From contig QHBU01000024.1 in NCBI GenBank assembly GCA_003244045.1, positions 1 to 35,764 on the forward strand: DNA of 35,764 nt. Direction: 5' to 3'. Shown here in pieces: positions 11,239 to 35,764 of this stretch. Below the pieces are notes generated by a model that saw only the letters and a program-made list of their open reading frames with translations, made no database searches and was not told the origin of the DNA. The DNA is from Candidatus Aeolococcus gillhamiae (GTDB lineage Bacteria; Chloroflexota; Dormibacteria; Aeolococcales; Aeolococcaceae). Position numbers and translations under genes: made by a program. Each line of letters begins with the position of its first letter. The first letter of the stretch is position 1.

Positions 11239-12063
11239 TCAGGACGCGCGGCGATAGGCGCGTACGGCGAGCGGCGCAAACACCACGAGAATCCCTGCCA
11301 GCCAGGCCAGCGCCTCCCAGAGTGACGGAAAGAGCGGAAACTGCGGGCCGCCGAGGGCGAGCGACCGCATCGAGTTGATGACCAGCGTCACCGGTTGATG
11401 GTTGGCGAACGCCTGCATCCATCCCGGCATGGTGGCGATGGGGACGAATGCCGAGCTGACGAACGTCAGGGGGAACAGCCAGATCAGGCCGAAGGCCTGC
11501 ACCGACTCCTCGTCCTTGATCGCCAGGCCGATGAAGGCCGACACGCAGCAGATGGTGACCCCGAACAGCTCGGCGAGCAGGATCATCGCCACCGCATTGA
11601 GCGCGCCATTCTGGAATCGGAATCCCACCGCGTACCCCACGCCGACGATGACGAGGATGGTGACCAGCATGCGGATGGCGTCTGCCATCAACCGTCCGGC
11701 CAGAACGGCCGATCGCGCCATGGGCAGCGAGCGCAAGCGGTCGATGATGCCCGCCTTCGCTTCCTGGGCCAGCGCGATCGCGGTTGCGAAGGTGGCGAAC
11801 GCCGCCGTCTGGCCGATGATCCCCGGCATCAGGAAATTGACGTAGCCGCCGGCGTTGTTCACCGGAATGGCGCCGCCGAACACGTAGCGGAAGAGGAGCA
11901 CGAAGATCACCGGCTGGACCACGGTGAACACGATGTACGCCGGCACCCGCAGCCACACGAGAAGGTTGCGCCGAGTCATCACCAGCGAGTCGCTGACCGC
12001 CCAGCGCGCCAGCTGCGCCACGCTGGGACGCGATGGCGGTGCTGTCGTTGTGGCCGTTGTCAT
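11239..12063 (-). CDS. ABC-2 type transporter permease (DrrB-like)
   Basis: The 274-residue integral membrane protein is the permease half of an ABC-2 type exporter of the daunorubicin-resistance DrrB kind. It has a short cytosolic N-terminus, VFTVVQPVIFVLLFRYVFGG as first membrane segment, the YVNFLMPGIIGQTAAF region, EAKAGIIDRLRSLPMARSAV (the coupling region that contacts the ATPase), and further helices including ILVIVGVGYAVGF, FPLTFVSSAFVPIATMPGW and LAGILVVFAPLAV, six in all. The start codon overlaps the stop of the ATPase gene by 4 nt (ATGA), so the two subunits are coupled. The substrate is unknown; such pairs export drugs, lipids or glycolipids. Confidence 0.9.
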   Translation of the reverse strand: MTTATTTAPPSRPSVAQLARWAVSDSLVMTRRNLLVWLRVPAYIVFTVVQPVIFVLLFRYVFGGAIPVNNAGGYVNFLMPGIIGQTAAFATFATAIALAQEAKAGIIDRLRSLPMARSAVLAGRLMADAIRMLVTILVIVGVGYAVGFRFQNGALNAVAMILLAELFGVTICCVSAFIGLAIKDEESVQAFGLIWLFPLTFVSSAFVPIATMPGWMQAFANHQPVTLVINSMRSLALGGPQFPLFPSLWEALAWLAGILVVFAPLAVRAYRRAS

Positions 12064-26767: not shown

Positions 26768-27622
26768 TTACGGCGCTCGGCTCGTGCGGGCCTTCTCGCT
26801 CGTTTGCGCGAGCCGGAAGATCGTGACCAGACCCACGCCGCCAACGAGGTTCCCGGCCGTGGTGATACCCATCCAGGCGGCAACCTCAAGCCATGAATGG
26901 CTGGTGTGCTGGAAGCCTACGAAGATCAGCGCGGCGCCAACCACCGTGTGCGAGGTGTTGGCCGCGAAGACCACAAAACCGGCAGCCCAGATGACCAGGA
27001 TCTTGCCTAGGACATTGCGGACGGCGAGGACGAGCCAAGTCAGCACGGTCATGATGAGGCCGGCCAGAACGGCTGACACGAAAACGGCCAACAAGGGCAG
27101 GTTCAACTTGTAGTCAGCGTAGGCGGTGTAGCCAGCAATGATGGGCGCGCCAATCGCCTCGGGCACAGACAACATCGCCGCCATGGCAACGCAGCCAAAC
27201 ATGTTGCCGACCCACGAGACTGCCCAGAGCCGTAGCAGATCAACCGCCCTACCATCACCCTTGACTACGGCCACCACCGGGATCAGGAAGTTTTCGGTGA
27301 AGAGCTCGGATCGACCCAAGATGACGAAGACAAAGCCAATCGGAAAGACGACTCCTGCCAAGACCAGCGCTGCGTACAGCCCTGCGCGAGGTGCGGCGCC
27401 GAGGAGCGCTCCGATGACCACCGCCGCCGCGAGGCCGCCAAGGGAGACCTCGACCCCGCCAATGATGGCGGTGATCAGGATATCGGCAGTGCTGCGTCCC
27501 AATCGCGCCTCGCCGACCGCCGACCCGCGCTCGATGACGTCGTCGGGCTCCTCGCCGAGAACCTCGTCGACCGGAAGGCTGTCGTCTTCTCCCGCTTTCG
27601 GCCTGTTCGCGGTGCGAGCCAT
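26768..27622 (-). CDS. Formate/nitrite transporter (FNT) family channel
   Basis: The 284-residue membrane protein belongs to the pentameric FNT channels, which pass formate, nitrite, hydrosulfide or small organic anions. It starts MARTANRPKAGEDDSLPVDE (ATG at 27620-27622); the longer frame upstream has no family similarity. A soluble N-terminal stretch of about 65 residues precedes six hydrophobic helices. Family landmarks include ILGRSELFTENFLIPVVAVV, the LRLWAVSWVGNMFGC helix, and FVVFAANTSHTVVGA with a central His in the pore region. A CACAAT box 8 nt upstream may be its -10. No formate dehydrogenase or nitrite reductase is nearby, so the substrate is open. Confidence 0.85.
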   Translation of the reverse strand: MARTANRPKAGEDDSLPVDEVLGEEPDDVIERGSAVGEARLGRSTADILITAIIGGVEVSLGGLAAAVVIGALLGAAPRAGLYAALVLAGVVFPIGFVFVILGRSELFTENFLIPVVAVVKGDGRAVDLLRLWAVSWVGNMFGCVAMAAMLSVPEAIGAPIIAGYTAYADYKLNLPLLAVFVSAVLAGLIMTVLTWLVLAVRNVLGKILVIWAAGFVVFAANTSHTVVGAALIFVGFQHTSHSWLEVAAWMGITTAGNLVGGVGLVTIFRLAQTSEKARTSRAP

Positions 27623-27630
27623 CGGATCAG

Positions 27631-27636
27631 ATTGTG
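27631..27636 (-). promoter_or_regulatory. Candidate -10 box of the FNT gene
   Basis: On the minus strand CACAAT ends 8 nt before the ATG, the same sequence and spacing as before the ABC exporter ATPase gene. No good -35 was found and no Shine-Dalgarno sequence is visible. Confidence 0.3.
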
Positions 27637-28116
27637 GCCTGCCGTCGACCGAGGCGCTTGCGGGGCAGATGGCGGCGGACGCCAGCCACCCGGATCCCAT
27701 TGGCTTGACCGTTGGGCGCATCGGGCCGGCCTTCCCTCGTATGGCACGTATCGGTGGGTGGGTCAGAAGCGGACAGACAGCGCGGGTGCGGCCGGTTCCT
27801 CTCCTCCGAAGACGATGGGGCGGTCTGACTGCGGGCGCCCTCGCTGAGAGCGCGCACGTTCGACCCCAGGAACCTGGTCAGCGGGTTTGGAGGCGTGAGC
27901 GCGGTGCAGTCGGTGCGGTGCACCTGCTCGTTTGGATGAGGACGCGGTGCTCGGGAGGCACGCGCACTGCACGCCGGCGCGCGTAGTCGTATGCCGATTG
28001 GCCGGTGTAGTGGGTCCAGGATTTCCCAGACCGCTACTCTCGGCCGGACCGACGTGGTCCAGATCCGACCGCAGCGGCGCGATTTCCGGGGACCGCCCGC
28101 GAAGGCCGGACCTGCC
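27637..28116. other. Gene-free stretch of about 480 nt before the aryl-CoA operon
   Basis: No convincing frame on either strand. Open frames crossing here are extensions of shadows from the FNT and ligase genes. No RNA gene or strong hairpin was recognised. Confidence 0.45.
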
Positions 28117-28152
28117 ATCACGGTAGATTGACGACCGTCAGCAAACCGTGAT
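28117..28152. promoter_or_regulatory. Nested palindromes: candidate operator of the aryl-CoA operon
   Basis: ATCACGGT (28117-28124) and ACCGTGAT (28145-28152) are a perfect 8-bp inverted repeat. Centred within the spacer is a second perfect repeat, TGACG-AC-CGTCA (28129-28140). Together they cover the -35, the spacer and the first base of the -10 of the operon promoter. A repressor bound here would block RNA polymerase. The PaaX-type protein encoded at the end of the operon is the natural candidate ligand, but the sequence does not resemble the E. coli PaaX site. Confidence 0.5.
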
Positions 28153-28157
28153 AGCGT
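28128..28157 (+). promoter_or_regulatory. Candidate promoter of the aryl-CoA operon
   Basis: TTGACG (28128-28133), an 18-nt spacer and TAGCGT (28152-28157, TAnnnT) form a promoter overlapping the nested palindromes. Transcription would start near 28164, leaving a leader of about 55 nt that contains the GAGGAGG ribosome site at 28207-28213. Confidence 0.5.
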
Positions 28158-28220
28158 CGCGGCAGCCAGGACGGGCGGCGTCCAGGAGGACGTCGCGGCG
28201 CCGGGCGAGGAGGCGATCAG

Positions 28221-29825
28221 ATCACGCGGTCCGCGCACGTCGACAGCTTCGCCCGGGACCACCTCCCGCCGCGCCAGCAGTGGCCCAAGCTGATCTTCGC
28301 CCTGCCCGAGCTGCTCTACCCCGAACAGCTCAACTGCGCGCATGAGCTGCTGGACGCCACCGCCGCGCGCCTCGGCGGCGACCGCCGCTGCCTGGTCACC
28401 GACAGCGTGACGTGGACGTACGCGGACCTGCTGCGCCACACCAACCGGATCGCCAACGTGCTCGTCAGGGACCTCGGACTGGTGCCGGGCAACCGCGTGC
28501 TGATGCGTGGCACCAACAATCCCTGGCAGGTCGCGTGCTGGCTGGCTGTCCTCAAGGCCGGTGGGGTGGTGGTGAGCACGATGCCGCTGCTGCGCGCCGG
28601 CGAGCTTCGGCCGGTCATCGAGGCGGCCCAGCCGTCCCTGGCGATCTGTGATGTCGGCCTCGCCGATGAGCTCGTCGCCGCCGGAACCGGCGGGGCGGCG
28701 ATCGTCCCGGTGGGGGGTGGCGGCGCCGACGACATGACCGTCCGAGCAGCGTCGCGGCCCGACAGCTTCGCGGCCGTGCCGACCGCAGCGGACGACGTGG
28801 CGCTCATTGCTTTCACCTCCGGGACCACGGGGCGGCCGAAGGGCTGCATGCACTTCCATCGCGATGTGCTGGCCATCGCCGACACGTTCTCGAGCCACGT
28901 TCTGCGCCCGCACTGCGACAGCCTGTTCGTGGCCAGCCCGCCGATGGCCTTCACGTACGGGCTCGGCGGCATGTTGGTGTTCCCGCTGCGTGTCGGCGCC
29001 GCCAGCCTGCTGCCGGAGAAGACGGCGCCGCCGCTGCTCGCCGAGGCGATCGCGCGCCACCGCGCCACCGCGGTGTTCACCGCGCCGACCGCGTACCGCG
29101 CCATGCTCCGCCTGCCCGGAGTCGCGCTCGATTCGCTCGAACACTGCGTCTCGGCAGGCGAGCACCTGCCCGCCGCGACCTGGGAGGCGTGGCGAGAGGC
29201 GACGGGGCAGCGCATCATCGACGGCATCGGCGCCACCGAGATGCTGCACATCTTCATCTCAGCGTCCGCTGATGAGGTGCGACCCGGGTCCACCGGGCGC
29301 GCTGTGCCCGGCTTTCGCGCACGCGTCGTCGATGACGATGGACAGCCCGTCGCCGACGGAGACGTCGGCCGCCTCCAGGTGCAGGGACCGGTCGGCTGCC
29401 GCTACCTCTCCGACGAGCGCCAGCTGGAGTACGTGCGCGACGGCTGGAACGTCACCGGCGACTCGTACGTGCGTGACGAGGACGGCTACTACTGGTACCA
29501 GGCGCGCACCGACGACATGATCATCTCGTCGGGCTACAACATCGCCGGGCCGGAGGTGGAAGGTGCGCTGCTGCGACACCCTGACGTGGCCGAAGCGGCC
29601 GTGGTCGGCGTGCCTGATGAGGATCGCGGAACGGTGGTGAAGGCGTTCGTCGTCCTCGCCGCGGACACCGAGGCGTCGGCCGTCAGCGCGCGCCTCCTCC
29701 AGGACTTCGTTAAGCACCAGATTGCGCCGTACAAGTATCCGCGGGTCATCGAGTTCGTCGAAGCGCTGCCGCGTACCTCCAGCGGCAAGGTGCAGCGCTT
29801 CCGACTCCGCGAGCAGGTGAGATGA
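28221..29825 (+). CDS. 2-aminobenzoate/benzoate-type aryl-CoA ligase, with ATC at the expected start
   Basis: This ANL-superfamily enzyme activates an aromatic acid to its CoA thioester with ATP. Homology begins at ITRSAHVDSFARDHLPPRQQ and runs on through LPELLYPEQLNCAHELLDAT, as in benzoate- and 2-aminobenzoate-CoA ligases. Taking ATC 28221 as codon 1 gives 534 residues, the normal length. Motifs are the AMP loop FTSGTTGRPKG (from residue 199), DGIGATEMLHIF, DGWNVTGDSYVRDEDGYYWY and the catalytic Lys523 in SSGKVQRF. No ATG, GTG or TTG lies in frame between the stop at 28152-28154 and this point; a GAGGAGG site sits exactly 7 nt before the ATC. The first conventional start is GTG 28407, which would remove 62 conserved residues. 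The stop overlaps the SDR start (ATGA). Confidence 0.87.
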   Translation: MTRSAHVDSFARDHLPPRQQWPKLIFALPELLYPEQLNCAHELLDATAARLGGDRRCLVTDSVTWTYADLLRHTNRIANVLVRDLGLVPGNRVLMRGTNNPWQVACWLAVLKAGGVVVSTMPLLRAGELRPVIEAAQPSLAICDVGLADELVAAGTGGAAIVPVGGGGADDMTVRAASRPDSFAAVPTAADDVALIAFTSGTTGRPKGCMHFHRDVLAIADTFSSHVLRPHCDSLFVASPPMAFTYGLGGMLVFPLRVGAASLLPEKTAPPLLAEAIARHRATAVFTAPTAYRAMLRLPGVALDSLEHCVSAGEHLPAATWEAWREATGQRIIDGIGATEMLHIFISASADEVRPGSTGRAVPGFRARVVDDDGQPVADGDVGRLQVQGPVGCRYLSDERQLEYVRDGWNVTGDSYVRDEDGYYWYQARTDDMIISSGYNIAGPEVEGALLRHPDVAEAAVVGVPDEDRGTVVKAFVVLAADTEASAVSARLLQDFVKHQIAPYKYPRVIEFVEALPRTSSGKVQRFRLREQVR

Positions 29826-30562
29826 CGGTTGCAGTGGTGACGGGCGCCTCGCGTGGCATCGGTCGCGCGATCACGCAGGACCTCGCATCGCGCGGTCACC
29901 AAGTTGTCGCTATGGCGCGCAATCGGACGGCGCTCGAAGCGCTGGCCCGTGAGGTTGCCGGCGACGTGGTCCCGATCGTGTGCGATGTGAGCGACGAGAA
30001 CGCTGTCAACGAGGCGTTCGCCGGCCTGGGCGATGTCGACATCCTGGTGAACAATGCCGGGGCAGCGACGTCGAACCCTGTTCACCGAACCACGCTAACG
30101 CAGTGGGACGAGATGCTGCGTGTCAACGCCACTGGCCCATTCCTCTGCACGCGCGCGGTGCTCCGCGGGATGCGCCAGCGGGACCACGGGCGGATCGTCA
30201 CCATCGCGTCGGTGGCGGGACTGTCCGGGGGCCGGTACATCGCCGCCTACGCAGCCTCGAAGCACGCGGCGGTCGGGTTGATACGCGTGGTCGCCGCCGA
30301 GGTGCGAGGCAGTGGGGTCACCGCCAACGCCGTGTGCCCCTCGTACGTGCGCACCGCGATGACGGACAACACCGTCGCCGCCATCGAGGAGCGCAGCGGT
30401 GGGGCGGCCGGTTCGGGGGAGGCGATCCTGGTGGCGCAGATGGGACTCGGCCGGTTGATCGAGCCGGAGGAGGTCGCCGCCGCAGTTGCCTACCTGCTGT
30501 CGCCGGCGGCGGCGGCCGTCAACGGCGAGGTTATCGTCATCGACGGCGGAGGTGGCGAGTGA
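29822..30562 (+). CDS. Short-chain dehydrogenase/reductase (3-hydroxyacyl-CoA dehydrogenase-like)
   Basis: The 246-residue classical SDR oxidises or reduces a ketone/alcohol with NAD(P). It has TGASRGIG in the first loop, VCDVSDENAV, the NNAG motif (ILVNNAGAA), the catalytic Ser in IASVAGLSGG, the YAASK pair, and the VCPSYVRTAMT region after it, ending NGEVIVIDGGGGE. Fold and length are complete. It overlaps the ligase gene by 4 nt upstream (ATGA) and the crotonase gene by 4 nt downstream (GTGA). In the proposed pathway it could reduce the ring ketone left by the monooxygenase/reductase, or act in beta-oxidation; sequence cannot separate these. Confidence 0.92.
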   Translation: MTVAVVTGASRGIGRAITQDLASRGHQVVAMARNRTALEALAREVAGDVVPIVCDVSDENAVNEAFAGLGDVDILVNNAGAATSNPVHRTTLTQWDEMLRVNATGPFLCTRAVLRGMRQRDHGRIVTIASVAGLSGGRYIAAYAASKHAAVGLIRVVAAEVRGSGVTANAVCPSYVRTAMTDNTVAAIEERSGGAAGSGEAILVAQMGLGRLIEPEEVAAAVAYLLSPAAAAVNGEVIVIDGGGGE

Positions 30563-31374
30563 GCTCTATCGCCACGCCGCGCCAGTGGACGAACTTCCGC
30601 GTCGTGGTGCGCCGCGGGGTCATGGCGATCGCACTGGACCGACCCGACCGTCTCAACGCGCTTACGTTCGACGTCTACGCCGACCTGCGCGACCTCTTCG
30701 CGGACCTGCGCGAGCGCGAGGACGTGGGGGCGGTGACGCTGACCGGGAGCGGACGCGGGTTCTGCTCCGGTGGTGACGTCGACGAGATCATCAGGCCGCT
30801 GCTCGACGCGGACGCGCAGCGGCGGCTCGAGTTCACGCGCATGACCGGCGCCGTGATCGAGAACATGCGGCGGTGCCCGCAGCCGGTCATCGCCGCCGTC
30901 AACGGTGTGGCGGCCGGGGCCGGTGCGGTGCTCGCCCTGGCCGCCGACTTCCGCCTGCTCGTTCCCACCGCAACGTTCCGCTTCCTGTTCACGCAGGTGG
31001 GCCTCTCCGGCGGTGACATGGGCGCCGCCTACCTGCTCCCACGAGTGGTCGGGCTGGCACGGGCCACCGAGATCCTCATGCTCGGCGATCCCGTGGGCGC
31101 TCAACGTGCGCTGGAGATCGGTCTTGCCAATGGCATCGTCGACGCGTCTGCGTTGCAGGACGAGGCCGCGGCACTCGCGGACCGCATCGCCTCGGGGCCG
31201 CGACGGGCGTACGCGGCGACCAAGCAGATGCTCACCGACGAGCAGGACATGGACCTCGCCCGCGCCATCGAGCACGAGGCCCTCGCGCAGGCGCAGCTCA
31301 TGGACACGGACGACCATCGCGAGTTCCACGCGGCCTTCAGCGAGCGGCGGCCGCCGCGCTGGAGCGGCCGGTGA
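30559..31374 (+). CDS. Crotonase-family enzyme (enoyl-CoA hydratase or ring hydrolase)
   Basis: The GTG at 30559, with GGAGG at 30548-30552, gives a 271-residue crotonase, an enzyme class that stabilises CoA enolates. The first oxyanion-hole segment is TGSGRGFCSGGDVDEII, and the second is VNGVAAGAGAVLALAADFRL. Where typical hydratases have a QPE-type catalytic Glu before the PGxGG turn, this protein reads FLFTQVGLSGGDMGAAYLLP. Simple enoyl-CoA hydration by the usual two-Glu mechanism is therefore uncertain. Aspartate-based members such as MenB and the ring-opening hydrolase BadI are worth comparing. Both ends overlap neighbouring genes by 4 nt (GTGA), so expression is coupled. A ring-opening role in the operon is inference. 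Confidence 0.88.
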   Translation: MSSIATPRQWTNFRVVVRRGVMAIALDRPDRLNALTFDVYADLRDLFADLREREDVGAVTLTGSGRGFCSGGDVDEIIRPLLDADAQRRLEFTRMTGAVIENMRRCPQPVIAAVNGVAAGAGAVLALAADFRLLVPTATFRFLFTQVGLSGGDMGAAYLLPRVVGLARATEILMLGDPVGAQRALEIGLANGIVDASALQDEAAALADRIASGPRRAYAATKQMLTDEQDMDLARAIEHEALAQAQLMDTDDHREFHAAFSERRPPRWSGR

Positions 31375-31793
31375 GCGAGACCCCTCACACACTCATCAAC
31401 CCCGCCGAGCTCGGCGCGGCGGCAGGGTTCAGCCATGGTGTGCTGGCGGGCCCGGGCCGCGCCCTGTACATCGCGGGCCAGGTCGGCGCGGATGACGGCG
31501 GAGCGGTCGTCGGCGGCGGCATCGTCGCTCAGTTCGATGCGGCCCTGGGGCGAATTGTTGCCGTGGTGAGCCATGCCGGTGGCGCGTCGGAGCACGTGGT
31601 GTCGATGACCATCTACACGACGGTGCTCGACGACTACCGATCCAAACGCGGAGAGGTTGGCGCCGCGTACCGACGACACTTCGGGCGGCACTTCCCCGCC
31701 ATGGCTCTCGTGGGCGTCACCGAGCTTGTGGACCCAGCGGCCGTGGTCGAGATCAGCGCCGTCGCCGTGGTGCCTGTGGCGACCTGGATGTGA
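31371..31793 (+). CDS. RidA family protein (enamine/imine deaminase type)
   Basis: The 140-residue protein begins [20 protein letters not shown] and follows the RidA/YjgF fold: [17 protein letters not shown], then [31 protein letters not shown] and a closing [17 protein letters not shown] strand. RidA proteins are trimeric and hydrolyse reactive enamines/imines to ketones plus ammonia. The strict RidA Arg of the C-terminal motif (usually RxxV before the last strand) is not evident here, so it may belong to an Rid1-7 side group. It sits in an operon whose predicted monooxygenase product is an enamine, which gives a direct reason for its presence. GTG start, overlapping the crotonase stop by 4 nt; the next gene starts 4 nt after its stop. 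Confidence 0.87.
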
Positions 31794-31797
31794 GCTC

Positions 31798-34104
31798 GTG
31801 AACATCGTCTGCGTCGGCGGCGGACCCGGCGGCTTGCTCTTTGCCATCCTCTCGCGGCTGGCCGACGACGGGAACGCCGTCGAGGTTCGCGAGCGCAACC
31901 GTGCCGACGACCCGTTCGGTTTCGGTGTTGTTTTCTCGGACGAGACACTGACCAACCTGCGCGGCGCCGACCCGGCGACGTTCGCGCGCATCGAGGCAGA
32001 GATGCGCTACTGGACGGAGATCGACATCGATCTCGGCGGCCGCTTGATGCGTTCCGGCGGACACGGCTTCGCCGCGTTGGAGCGGCGCCGCCTGCTCGCG
32101 ATCCTCTCCGAGCGTGCCGTCGAGGTGGGTGTGCGGGTGCGCTACTCGTCGACCTCGACCGACCTGGCACGCTTACGCGCTGAGCACGACCTGGTTGTGG
32201 CGACCGACGGGGTGAACAGCCAGCTGCGGGCCGCCGGCGCCGCGGTGTTCCAACCGGTGCTCGAGGTCGGCAGCGCGCGCTACGTGTGGCTGGCCACCAC
32301 GCATTGCTTCGAGCGCTTCTCGTTCATCTTCCGCGACACCGAAGCGGGGCCGGTTCAGGCGCACGCCTACCCGTACAGCGATGGCATGGCGTCGTTCATC
32401 GTCGAGGTGGAGGAGGCGACCTGGCAACGCACCGGGCTCGACGACCGGGTGGCCAACCTGGCGCCCGGTGCGAGCGATCCCTCCGCCCTCGCGTTCGCAG
32501 AGCGCGTCTTCGCGCGGGACCTCGCCGGGCACGGGGTGATCGGCAACAACTCGCGGTGGATGCGCTTCACCACGGTGAGCAACCGCACCTGGCGAGACGG
32601 CAACGTCGTGCTGCTTGGCGACGCCGCGCACACCGCGCACTTCTCGGTGGGGTCGGGCACCAAGCTTGCCATGGAGGATGCGATCTCGCTGGCGTCCGCC
32701 CTGCGCGCCACTGCGTCGCTGGACGACGCTCTGGTGGCGTACGAGACGGAGCGGCGGCCGCTGGTGGAGAGCACCCAGCGCGCCGCGCGCACCAGCCAGG
32801 AGTGGTTCGAGGGCGTGCGTCGCTACCTCCCTCTGGCGCCCGAGAACTTCGCGTTCCAGCTGATGACCCGCTCACAACGCATTACGTTCGACAACCTGCG
32901 CATGCGCGACGCCGGTTTTGTCGATCGCAGCCTGCACTCGTTCTGGGGCGCCGCCCCGCAGAACCTCCGTCCCGAAAATCGCGACACGCCGCCGCTCTTC
33001 TACCCATTCCAACTGCGCGACATGCGGCTGCTCAACCGCGTGGTGGTGTCGTCGATGGCGCAGTACTCGGCCGAGGACGGTGTCCCTGACGACTGGCACC
33101 TCGTGCATCTGGGCAGCCGGGCGGTCGGCGGGGCGGGTCTGGTGATGACCGAGATGACCTGCGTCTCGCCCGAGGGCAGGATCACCCCGGGGTGCACGGG
33201 CCTGTGGAACGACACGCAGGAGAGCGCGTGGCAGCGGATCGTCGTGTTCGTGCACGAGAACAGCCAGGCGCGCATCGGCCTGCAGCTCGGCCACTCTGGG
33301 CGCAAGGGCTCCACCAAGGCAATGTGGGAGGGAGACGACATCCCGCTGGACGATGGCAACTGGCGCTTGCTCGCCCCCTCGCCGATCCCGTACCGGGCTG
33401 GCCTGCAGACGCCGGTGGAGATGACGCGCGCTGACATGGAGATGGTCACCTCGCAGTTCGTCCGCGCCGCACAGCGTGGGGCCGCCGCCGGCTTCGACCT
33501 CCTCGAACTCCACTGGGGGCACGGCTACCTGCTGTCGTCGTTCCTCTCGCCGTTCACCAACCGCCGCGCCGATGCGTACGGTGGATCGCCGCAAGCGCGC
33601 AGCCGCTACCCGCTCGAGGTCCTCGACGCCGTGCGCGCGGTGTGGCCCGCGGCCCGGCCCATGTCGGTGCGCATCTCGGCGACAGACTGGCTGGCCGGCG
33701 GTTTCAACGCCGACGACGCCTGCGTGCTCGCGGCTGCACTCCGTGACCATGGGTGCGACATCGTCGACGTCTCCAGCGGTCAGGTCGACCCCGCCGAACA
33801 GCCACGTCACGGCCGGCTCTGGCAGACACCGTTCAGCGATCGCATCCGCCAAGAGGTGGGGATTCCCACCATCGCGGTGGGCGGCATCGCGAGCGTCGAC
33901 GACGTCAACACCATCCTGCTCGCGGGCCGAAGCGACCTGGTCGCGCTGGCCCGACCGCACCTCGTCGATCCGTACTGGACTCTCAACGCCGCCATCGACC
34001 TGGAGTATCCCGGGCACAGATGGCCCGTCCAGTACGTGTCGGGAAAGACCGCGCGACGCCGTGAGCAGACCGCCATGGCCGCGCGCGAGAGGGACGCGAG
34101 GTGA
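31798..34104 (+). CDS. 2-aminobenzoyl-CoA monooxygenase/reductase-like FAD/FMN fusion
   Basis: The 768-residue protein is a two-domain flavoenzyme. Residues 1-395 are a class A FAD monooxygenase: [15 protein letters not shown] Rossmann motif, [14 protein letters not shown], the second NAD/FAD motif VVATDGVN and [20 protein letters not shown]. From about residue 401 an old-yellow-enzyme (FMN) domain follows: [31 protein letters not shown], and [20 protein letters not shown] with His572, His575 and Tyr577, then [16 protein letters not shown]. This order is that of 2-aminobenzoyl-CoA monooxygenase/reductase, which hydroxylates and reduces the ring of anthraniloyl-CoA. Salicylyl-CoA 5-hydroxylase is a close relative and the main alternative substrate class. 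GTG start 31798, 4 nt after the RidA stop; the stop overlaps the next gene. Confidence 0.9.
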
Positions 34105-35237
34105 CCGCGTTGCCGTCGACGCCCAACGACATCGTTCGACTGGCTCGCGAGCAGCTGGCGCCGGTTGCGGCCCGCGGTGCCCCGGGCCGTGTCAATCGCG
34201 AGCTGCTCGGCGCGCTGCACGACACTGGGCTGCTCGCCCGCGCGTTTCCGAGCAGCGTCGGCGGCACCCAGCCCGGTGCCGTGTCTGCGCTCGAGCTCTG
34301 TGTGCTCAGGGAGGCCTTGGCCCGAGGTTGTGTCGAGGCGGAGACGGCGCTCGCCATGCAGGCGTTGGGCGCGTATCCCATCCTGCAGTCGGGAACGCCC
34401 GCCACCGTCGAGCGCTGGGTGCCGGGAGTCTGCGCCGGTGAGATGGTCGCGGCGTTCGCGCTCTCCGAGTCGGGGGCCGGCTCCGACGCCGCCGCGCTCG
34501 AGCTCCGCGCCGAGCCCGCAGGAGGAGGCTACGTGCTCAACGGCACCAAGACCTGGATCTCCAACGCGCCCGATGCCGACGTGTACACCGTCTTCGCGCG
34601 CACCAGCGGCGTCCGCGCGCGGGGCGTCACCGCGTTCGCGGTCGACGGCCACGCTCCCGGCGTGTCAGGGACGCCCCTGGAGATGGTCTCCGGTCACCCG
34701 ATCGGGGAGGTGACGTTCAACGACGTCAACGTCTCCAGCGACGCCGTGCTCGGCGAGGTCGACGCCGGGTTCGCCGTCGCCATGCGCACTCTCGACCTGT
34801 TCCGACCGAGCGTCGGTGCGTTCGCGGTGGGGATGGCACAAGCCGCTCTGGACGCCGCGCTCGACCACGCGCGAACCCGCCAAGCATTCGGAGGAGTGCT
34901 GTTCGACATGCAATCCGTGGCGCACCGGCTCGCCGACATGGCGATCGCGGTGCACGCTTCGCGCCTCATGGTGCTCGACGCCGCGCGCGGCTACGACAGC
35001 GGCGTACCGGACGTGACCATGCGCTCCTCGATGGCCAAGCTGTTCGCCACCGAGGCGGCGCAGGGCGTTGTGGACGGCGCTGTCCAGATCCACGGGGCCT
35101 CGGCGCTGGAGCGCGGTCACCTGCTCGAACACCTCTATCGCGATGTGCGCGCTCCACGCATCTACGAGGGCCCCACCGAGCTGCAGCGAACCATCATCGC
35201 CCGCCGCTTGAGGTCGTCCACGGGGACCACGGCGTGA
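34101..35237 (+). CDS. Acyl-CoA dehydrogenase
   Basis: The 378-residue FAD enzyme of the acyl-CoA dehydrogenase family introduces an alpha,beta double bond into an acyl-CoA and passes electrons to ETF. It has an N-terminal helical domain, the FAD/substrate loop [40 protein letters not shown], and the C-terminal helical bundle with [20 protein letters not shown] and [23 protein letters not shown]. The catalytic base is Glu356 in [14 protein letters not shown], so the active site is intact. GTG start 34101, overlapping the previous stop by 4 nt (GTGA); the stop overlaps the PaaX-like start in the same way. In the pathway it would oxidise the ring-opened dicarboxyl-CoA intermediate. Confidence 0.93.
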
Positions 35238-35764
35238 CGCCGGCGGGCAACGGCGCGGCCGGCTCCGTGGGCCAGCCGTCGACGCGGTCGCTGATCCTCG
35301 ACATTTACGGGGCGGAGATCCGCGCGCTCGGCGGATGGCTGGCCATCGCCGCGCTGGTCGCGCTCATGGCGGACCTCGGCCACGACGCACAGGCGGTGCG
35401 GGCTGCGGTGTCGCGCATGAAGGCGTCGGCCCTGCTGACTGCGGACACGCGCGACGGCGTGGCGGGCTACCGCCTCACGGAGTCCGCCCTGGAGATCCTG
35501 CGTGACGGCGACCAACGGCTCTTCCAAGCCTCCGCACCGCCGGGCCTCGACGACGGGTGGGTGGTGGCCGTCTTCTCCGTGCCCGAGCAGAGCCGTGAGC
35601 GCCGTCACCGGCTGCGCGCCCTGCTGATCCGGCTCGGCTTCGGGCAGGTGACGCCGGGCGCGTGGATGGCGCCGTCGCGCATCGAGAGGGAGGCCCGGCG
35701 CCTGCTCGACCGAGCCCAGCTGGCGCAGTACGTGAGTCTGTTCGAGGGCGACTACCGGGGCTGC
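35234..35764 (+). CDS. Partial: PaaX-family transcriptional regulator
   Basis: A frame open to the right edge (177 codons seen) starts at GTG 35234, overlapping the dehydrogenase stop by 4 nt. After a short Gly/Ala leader it reads STRSLILDIYGAEIRALGGW, then LGHDAQAVRAAVSRMKASAL and VAGYRLTESALEILRDGDQR, the PaaX N-terminal winged-helix. GWVVAVFSVPEQSRERRHRL, then LRALLIRLGFGQVTPGAWMA, is the central PaaX domain. PaaX proteins are GntR-like repressors released by aryl-CoA thioesters (phenylacetyl-CoA in E. coli). Encoded inside this aryl-CoA operon, it probably senses the CoA ester of the substrate and controls the nested palindromes at 28117-28152. The C-terminus lies outside the window. Confidence 0.88.
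   Translation, partial: MTPAGNGAAGSVGQPSTRSLILDIYGAEIRALGGWLAIAALVALMADLGHDAQAVRAAVSRMKASALLTADTRDGVAGYRLTESALEILRDGDQRLFQASAPPGLDDGWVVAVFSVPEQSRERRHRLRALLIRLGFGQVTPGAWMAPSRIEREARRLLDRAQLAQYVSLFEGDYRGC

Follow-up and report, generated by a model that had tools for sequence, protein, structure and literature searches.

A probable coenzyme A-dependent anthranilate degradation operon with a PaaX-type regulator in Candidatus Aeolococcus gillhamiae

The degradation of anthranilate (2-aminobenzoate) through coenzyme A (CoA) thioesters has been described in Azoarcus evansii, in which a ligase and a monooxygenase/reductase precede beta-oxidation (Schuhle et al. 2001, described in PMC4539516), and a review mentions genetic support for the involvement of a 2-aminobenzoyl-CoA cluster in the breakdown of anthranilate (PMC6221969). 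A second system is carried by plasmid pAL1 of Arthrobacter sp. Rue61a, for whose ligase ARUE_113p00220, expressed in E. coli, anthranilate-CoA ligase activity was measured, and whose two PaaX-related regulators are involved in the control of quinaldine degradation (PMC3534580). We have analysed a related operon of Candidatus Aeolococcus gillhamiae (Chloroflexota), which reaches the right-hand end of contig QHBU01000024.1; the window, that is the whole stretch of 35,764 nucleotides under study, is this entire contig (C24) of a metagenome-assembled genome (MAG) of 2.96 Mb, 302 contigs and 84% completeness. Its seven genes lie on one strand and encode, in this order, an aryl-CoA ligase, a short-chain dehydrogenase/reductase (SDR), a crotonase, a Rid protein, a monooxygenase/Old Yellow Enzyme (OYE) fusion, an acyl-CoA dehydrogenase (ACAD) and a PaaX-type regulator. 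Judging from homology and genomic context, this operon very probably serves the inducible aerobic degradation of anthranilate via CoA thioesters.

Evidence for anthranilate as the substrate

Several observations favour anthranilate, the first being the relationships of the ligase, an AMP-forming aryl-CoA ligase akin to tested anthranilate ligases: along its entire length it shares 55.9% identity with the tested pAL1 enzyme, and its closest solved structure (4wv3) is likewise an Anthranilate-CoA ligase. Also, about ten of the examined clusters have a gene for tryptophan 2,3-dioxygenase (TDO) or kynureninase within them or nearby; these range from Thalassospira and Ruegeria to one member of the clade of the window itself, and in a nearby clade member (L010) TDO, KynU, SDR and RidA genes adjoin the fusion. 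The genome under study itself has adjacent genes for TDO (kynA) and kynureninase (kynU) on contig C46 (C46:27863-29811, L112), a likely supplier of anthranilate to the operon, and a search of its 84% complete assembly gave no 3-hydroxyanthranilate dioxygenase scoring above cut-off. Finally, the regulator and the operator match the pAL1 system, as detailed below. Indeed, the ligase homology and the kynurenine-pathway neighbours strengthen the anthraniloyl-CoA reading that had been proposed in the initial annotation.

The fusion has the A. evansii type of domain order, with the flavin adenine dinucleotide (FAD) monooxygenase N-terminal and the OYE domain C-terminal, and both the FAD-binding and the OYE histidine motifs are intact; it matches the NCBIfam equivalog NF006101 over its full length (1091.8 bits, cut-off 1078). 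No full-length relative was found among its PDB matches, these being OYE proteins or VioD, which cover it separately, and its closest named matches are Acidimicrobiales, Acidimicrobiia and other actinobacterial MAGs. A tree was computed for 48 fusions, in which pAL1 is the nearest studied reference. Here the window fusion first groups with the fusions of two genomes from the same family (69-70% identity, support 100/96), is next joined by L010 (96/90) and then by four other actinobacterial MAG sequences (100/99); the resulting group has as its sister a large actinobacterial clade containing Arthrobacter pAL1 (100/99). A further clade comprises the fusions of alphaproteobacterial and related clusters. 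The OYE site reads MAQY (or MSQY) in the window clade and in most Alphaproteobacteria, and MDMY in the pAL1 clade. As a separate observation, the fusions of two relatives from the same class (L101, L102) have a degraded OYE site, without the Cys/Ala-Tyr motif and with the histidine lost, and still adjoin crotonase, Rid, ACAD and SDR genes; in these two the reductase half may be altered or may have lost its function.

Since fusions beyond its own small clade share only 44-61% identity with the window fusion, the natural substrate of the latter might be another ortho-substituted aromatic acid, such as a substituted aminobenzoate, undergoing the same chemistry; as the kynA-kynU pair of the same genome yields anthranilate, we consider this unlikely. 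A different product from the same substrate is likewise conceivable, the fusion mainly forming 5-hydroxyanthraniloyl-CoA, which would then be hydrolysed and cleaved by a cupin dioxygenase, as pAL1-type clusters suggest. FAH, cupin and thioesterase genes are present in pAL1, Tsukamurella, Rhodococcus and other actinobacterial clusters, and extracts of strain Rue61a contained a hydroxyanthraniloyl-CoA-like ester (PMC3534580). However, the window has crotonase, SDR and ACAD genes instead of these three, and its fusion stands outside the pAL1 clade, its OYE site reading MAQY rather than MDMY, which makes this branch very improbable here. Salicylate degradation, in which the ligase would form salicylyl-CoA and the fusion, as a salicylyl-CoA 5-hydroxylase, would lead to gentisate, has in its favour the name of the equivalog that the fusion passes, but it is highly unlikely considering that gentisate dioxygenase and thioesterase genes are absent from the operon (28117-35764, up to the contig end), that most clusters with enough flank have a Rid protein alongside the fusion, that the recurrent cluster neighbours are kynurenine genes and that the nearest tested ligase uses anthranilate.

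Some results weigh against anthranilate degradation as the role of the operon. NF006101 is named 'bifunctional salicylyl-CoA 5-hydroxylase/oxidoreductase', and the arginine needed by the known imine deaminases is missing from the Rid protein. Within 110 genomes of the class, kynureninase did not co-occur significantly with the fusion (28 of the 53 genomes with a fusion vs 24 of the 57 without, p=0.34), and the fusion is absent from three congeneric genomes. Also, with an assembly that is 84% complete, absences carry little weight.

Operon layout, regulator and operator

Domain searches recovered all seven genes with the order and domains that had been proposed, and the operon is real: five of its six junctions, as read directly from the sequence, are overlaps of 4 nucleotides (nt), namely ATGA between the ligase and SDR genes and GTGA at the SDR/crotonase, crotonase/Rid, fusion/ACAD and ACAD/PaaX junctions. 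The sole exception is the Rid/fusion junction, where a 4-nt gap (TGA-GCTC-GTG) is found. The start of the operon had to be revised, since 28117, initially taken as its beginning, belongs to an inverted repeat around an operator-like palindrome (28117-28153), whereas the conserved N-terminus of the ligase (SAHVDSFARDHLPP...) starts at about 28221 (Table 1). No ATG, GTG or TTG is found in frame ahead of this N-terminus, and an ATC is located at 28221, 7 nt past a GGAGG; the ligase probably starts at this ATC, or else its start codon carries an assembly error.

Table 1. Positions of the genes and regulatory elements of the operon within the window
Feature	Position	Strand	Evidence
Bipartite inverted repeat surrounding the operator; outer arms ATCACGG / CCGTGAT	28117..28153	.	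inverted-repeat search
Putative promoter TTGACG-N18-TAGCGT, -35 element overlapping the operator	28128..28157	+	inference, read from sequence
TGACGACCGTCA, exact TGACG-N2-CGTCA palindrome; proposed operator of a PaaX-type repressor	28129..28140	.	pattern counts
Aryl-CoA (anthranilate-CoA) ligase, putative	28221..29825	+	benz_CoA_lig 374.7 of 375.25 bits; 56% to pAL1 ligase; best PDB match 4wv3
Short-chain dehydrogenase/reductase	29822..30562	+	PF00106, 7.6e-54; adjoins the fusion in many relatives too
Crotonase-family protein, PRK08258 type; candidate ring-opening hydrolase	30559..31374	+	368.4 vs cut-off 330
Rid-family protein, Met replacing the RidA catalytic Arg	31371..31793	+	PF01042
FAD monooxygenase/OYE fusion, 2-aminobenzoyl-CoA monooxygenase/reductase type	31798..34104	+	NF006101, motifs, tree
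Acyl-CoA dehydrogenase	34101..35237	+	domain search
PaaX-type transcriptional regulator, cut by the contig end, 177 aa	35234..35764	+	PF07848, PF20803

The contig end removes the C-terminus of the PaaX protein together with whatever follows downstream, and a search for both elsewhere in the assembly found neither. The N-terminal and central PaaX domains (PF07848, PF20803) are present, and the protein scores 84 bits against the phenylacetate repressor model TIGR02277 (cut-off 264.55), with only 177 aa of it available for the match. We have also considered a misbinned contig and rejected this: the flanking genes have 70-88% DNA identity to a congener and to another family member, and thus the contig probably belongs to this lineage. 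The gene upstream of the operon (26768-27721, minus strand) has the look of a formate/nitrite-type transporter, as recognised by eye.

The operator palindrome lies 81 nt ahead of the ligase start, overlapping the putative promoter, although a strict sigma-70 scan of this region reported no promoter. The TGACG-N2-CGTCA pattern is the operator of MeqR2, the pAL1 PaaX-type repressor whose effector is anthraniloyl-CoA. When the 1024 possible half-sites of five bases, spaced by 2 nt, were all compared upstream of cluster genes, TGACG ranked top, being found in three of ten other PaaX-bearing loci (the runner-up in one), with the window as the fourth; in the 40 loci that lack PaaX it never occurred at such positions. 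This association of the palindrome with PaaX has a Fisher p of 0.006 without the window and of 0.001 with it, the related loci not being fully independent. Within the window two matches occur against 0.11 expected, the second, at 11457, lying inside an unrelated predicted coding region. In pAL1 the palindrome is located directly upstream of one of its PaaX genes and, together with its conservation in PaaX loci, this makes autoregulation of the operon by its PaaX-type protein likely; the self-regulation initially suggested thus gains from both the regulator and a conserved operator. We propose no wider regulon, as seven palindrome sites are found genome-wide against about three expected from base composition and four for a reversed control, with none on the kynA-kynU contig C46.

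The Rid protein, the crotonase and the proposed pathway

The beta-oxidation-type genes of the cluster, as in the A. evansii type, are those for the SDR, the crotonase and the ACAD. The aspartate of the GxDMG motif is kept in all 27 cluster crotonases, and alignment reveals that the window crotonase lacks both enoyl-CoA hydratase glutamates, which fits an isomerase or a ring-opening hydrolase better than a hydratase.

The Rid protein matches the fold family PF01042 and has a methionine in place of Arg105, the catalytic arginine of archetypal RidA, and an arginine is found at this position in none of the 28 cluster Rid proteins. In RidA this residue binds the free carboxylate of the substrate and is needed for the known imine deaminase activity (PMC4433059, PMC5619798). 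As a CoA thioester offers no free carboxylate, a substrate of this kind would make it dispensable; alternatively, the cluster Rid proteins without arginine are not deaminases. It is possible, and we propose it only tentatively, that the Rid protein is a dedicated CoA-thioester enamine deaminase and that the crotonase with the invariant aspartate is the ring-opening hydrolase.

In the pathway that we envisage for anthranilate, the ligase would form anthraniloyl-CoA, the FAD domain of the fusion would hydroxylate the ring at C5 and the OYE domain would then reduce it, giving 2-amino-5-oxocyclohex-1-ene-carbonyl-CoA. The Rid protein may aid enamine/imine hydrolysis, and the SDR, the aspartate-type crotonase and the ACAD may account for ring opening and the start of beta-oxidation. 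The PaaX-type protein would repress at the palindrome over the -35 region, and anthraniloyl-CoA would release it. To our knowledge, certain later steps of this pathway apparently have no assigned enzymes, for which the comparison singles out the Rid protein lacking arginine and the aspartate-type crotonase as the best candidates. If correct, the deaminase/hydrolase assignment would fill these steps, and it would give a function to the Rid proteins without arginine, considered 'mysterious' in the literature.

Comparison with known clusters

The idea of an uncharacterised high-GC version that includes RidA and PaaX has to be abandoned, since pAL1 holds a ligase, fusion, RidA and PaaX that have been studied experimentally (PMC3534580) and the enzyme set is widespread. 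All six enzymes are found side by side in Ruegeria, Paracoccus, Phyllobacterium, Roseivivax, Thalassospira, Deinococcus and Gemmatirosa; the regulator, where mapped, is usually MarR, and several of these clusters have kynA/kynU inside or adjoining. Aminobacter has the same set minus the ligase in the stretch seen, and many Acidimicrobiia relatives have a large part of it. The enzymes, RidA among them, are thus spread over Alphaproteobacteria, Deinococcus, Gemmatimonadota and Acidimicrobiia. PaaX-linked actinobacterial versions are found in pAL1, Tsukamurella, Rhodococcus and Streptomyces plasmids. Nor is the gene order fixed, as had been supposed, given that order and orientation differ widely among clusters; the exact order of the window with PaaX as the last overlapping gene, a detail, was seen in no other cluster examined.

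In six actinobacterial loci (L002, L003, L004, L005, L007, L107) thioesterase, cupin and FAH genes replace the beta-oxidation genes, which suggests a hydroxylation and ring-cleavage branch using the same fusion. The operon is patchily distributed, as the three congeneric genomes (G001, G002, G003) all carry kynureninase despite having no fusion. Should the assignment to anthranilate be right, it would extend the CoA route of anthranilate (tryptophan) degradation to an uncultured lineage, with a regulator and an operator open to testing.

Compared with the described systems, the operon shares with the A. evansii clusters, as far as their description goes, the ligase, the monooxygenase/reductase fusion and the later beta-oxidation, in an organism of a different phylum. 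With Arthrobacter sp. Rue61a pAL1 it has in common the ligase (56%), the fusion (53%), RidA, a PaaX-type regulator by the cluster and the TGACG-N2-CGTCA palindrome; in pAL1, however, FAH, cupin and thioesterase replace the SDR, crotonase and ACAD of the window and, unlike in the window, the PaaX genes are not last in the enzyme operon. Clusters of Ruegeria, Thalassospira, Paracoccus and Deinococcus, arranged as fusion-SDR-MarR-crotonase-ACAD with ligase and RidA nearby, hold all six enzymes and often kynA/kynU, but have MarR instead of PaaX, another gene order and fusions about 48-50% identical to that of the window. A plasmid cluster of Streptomyces sp. BHT-5-2 (L135) also brings together crotonase, fusion, PaaX, ligase and ACAD, differing in order and strands, with a fusion 53% identical. 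Most likely, then, the operon belongs to the pathway known from Azoarcus and Arthrobacter, of which PaaX-linked actinobacterial versions have already been described.

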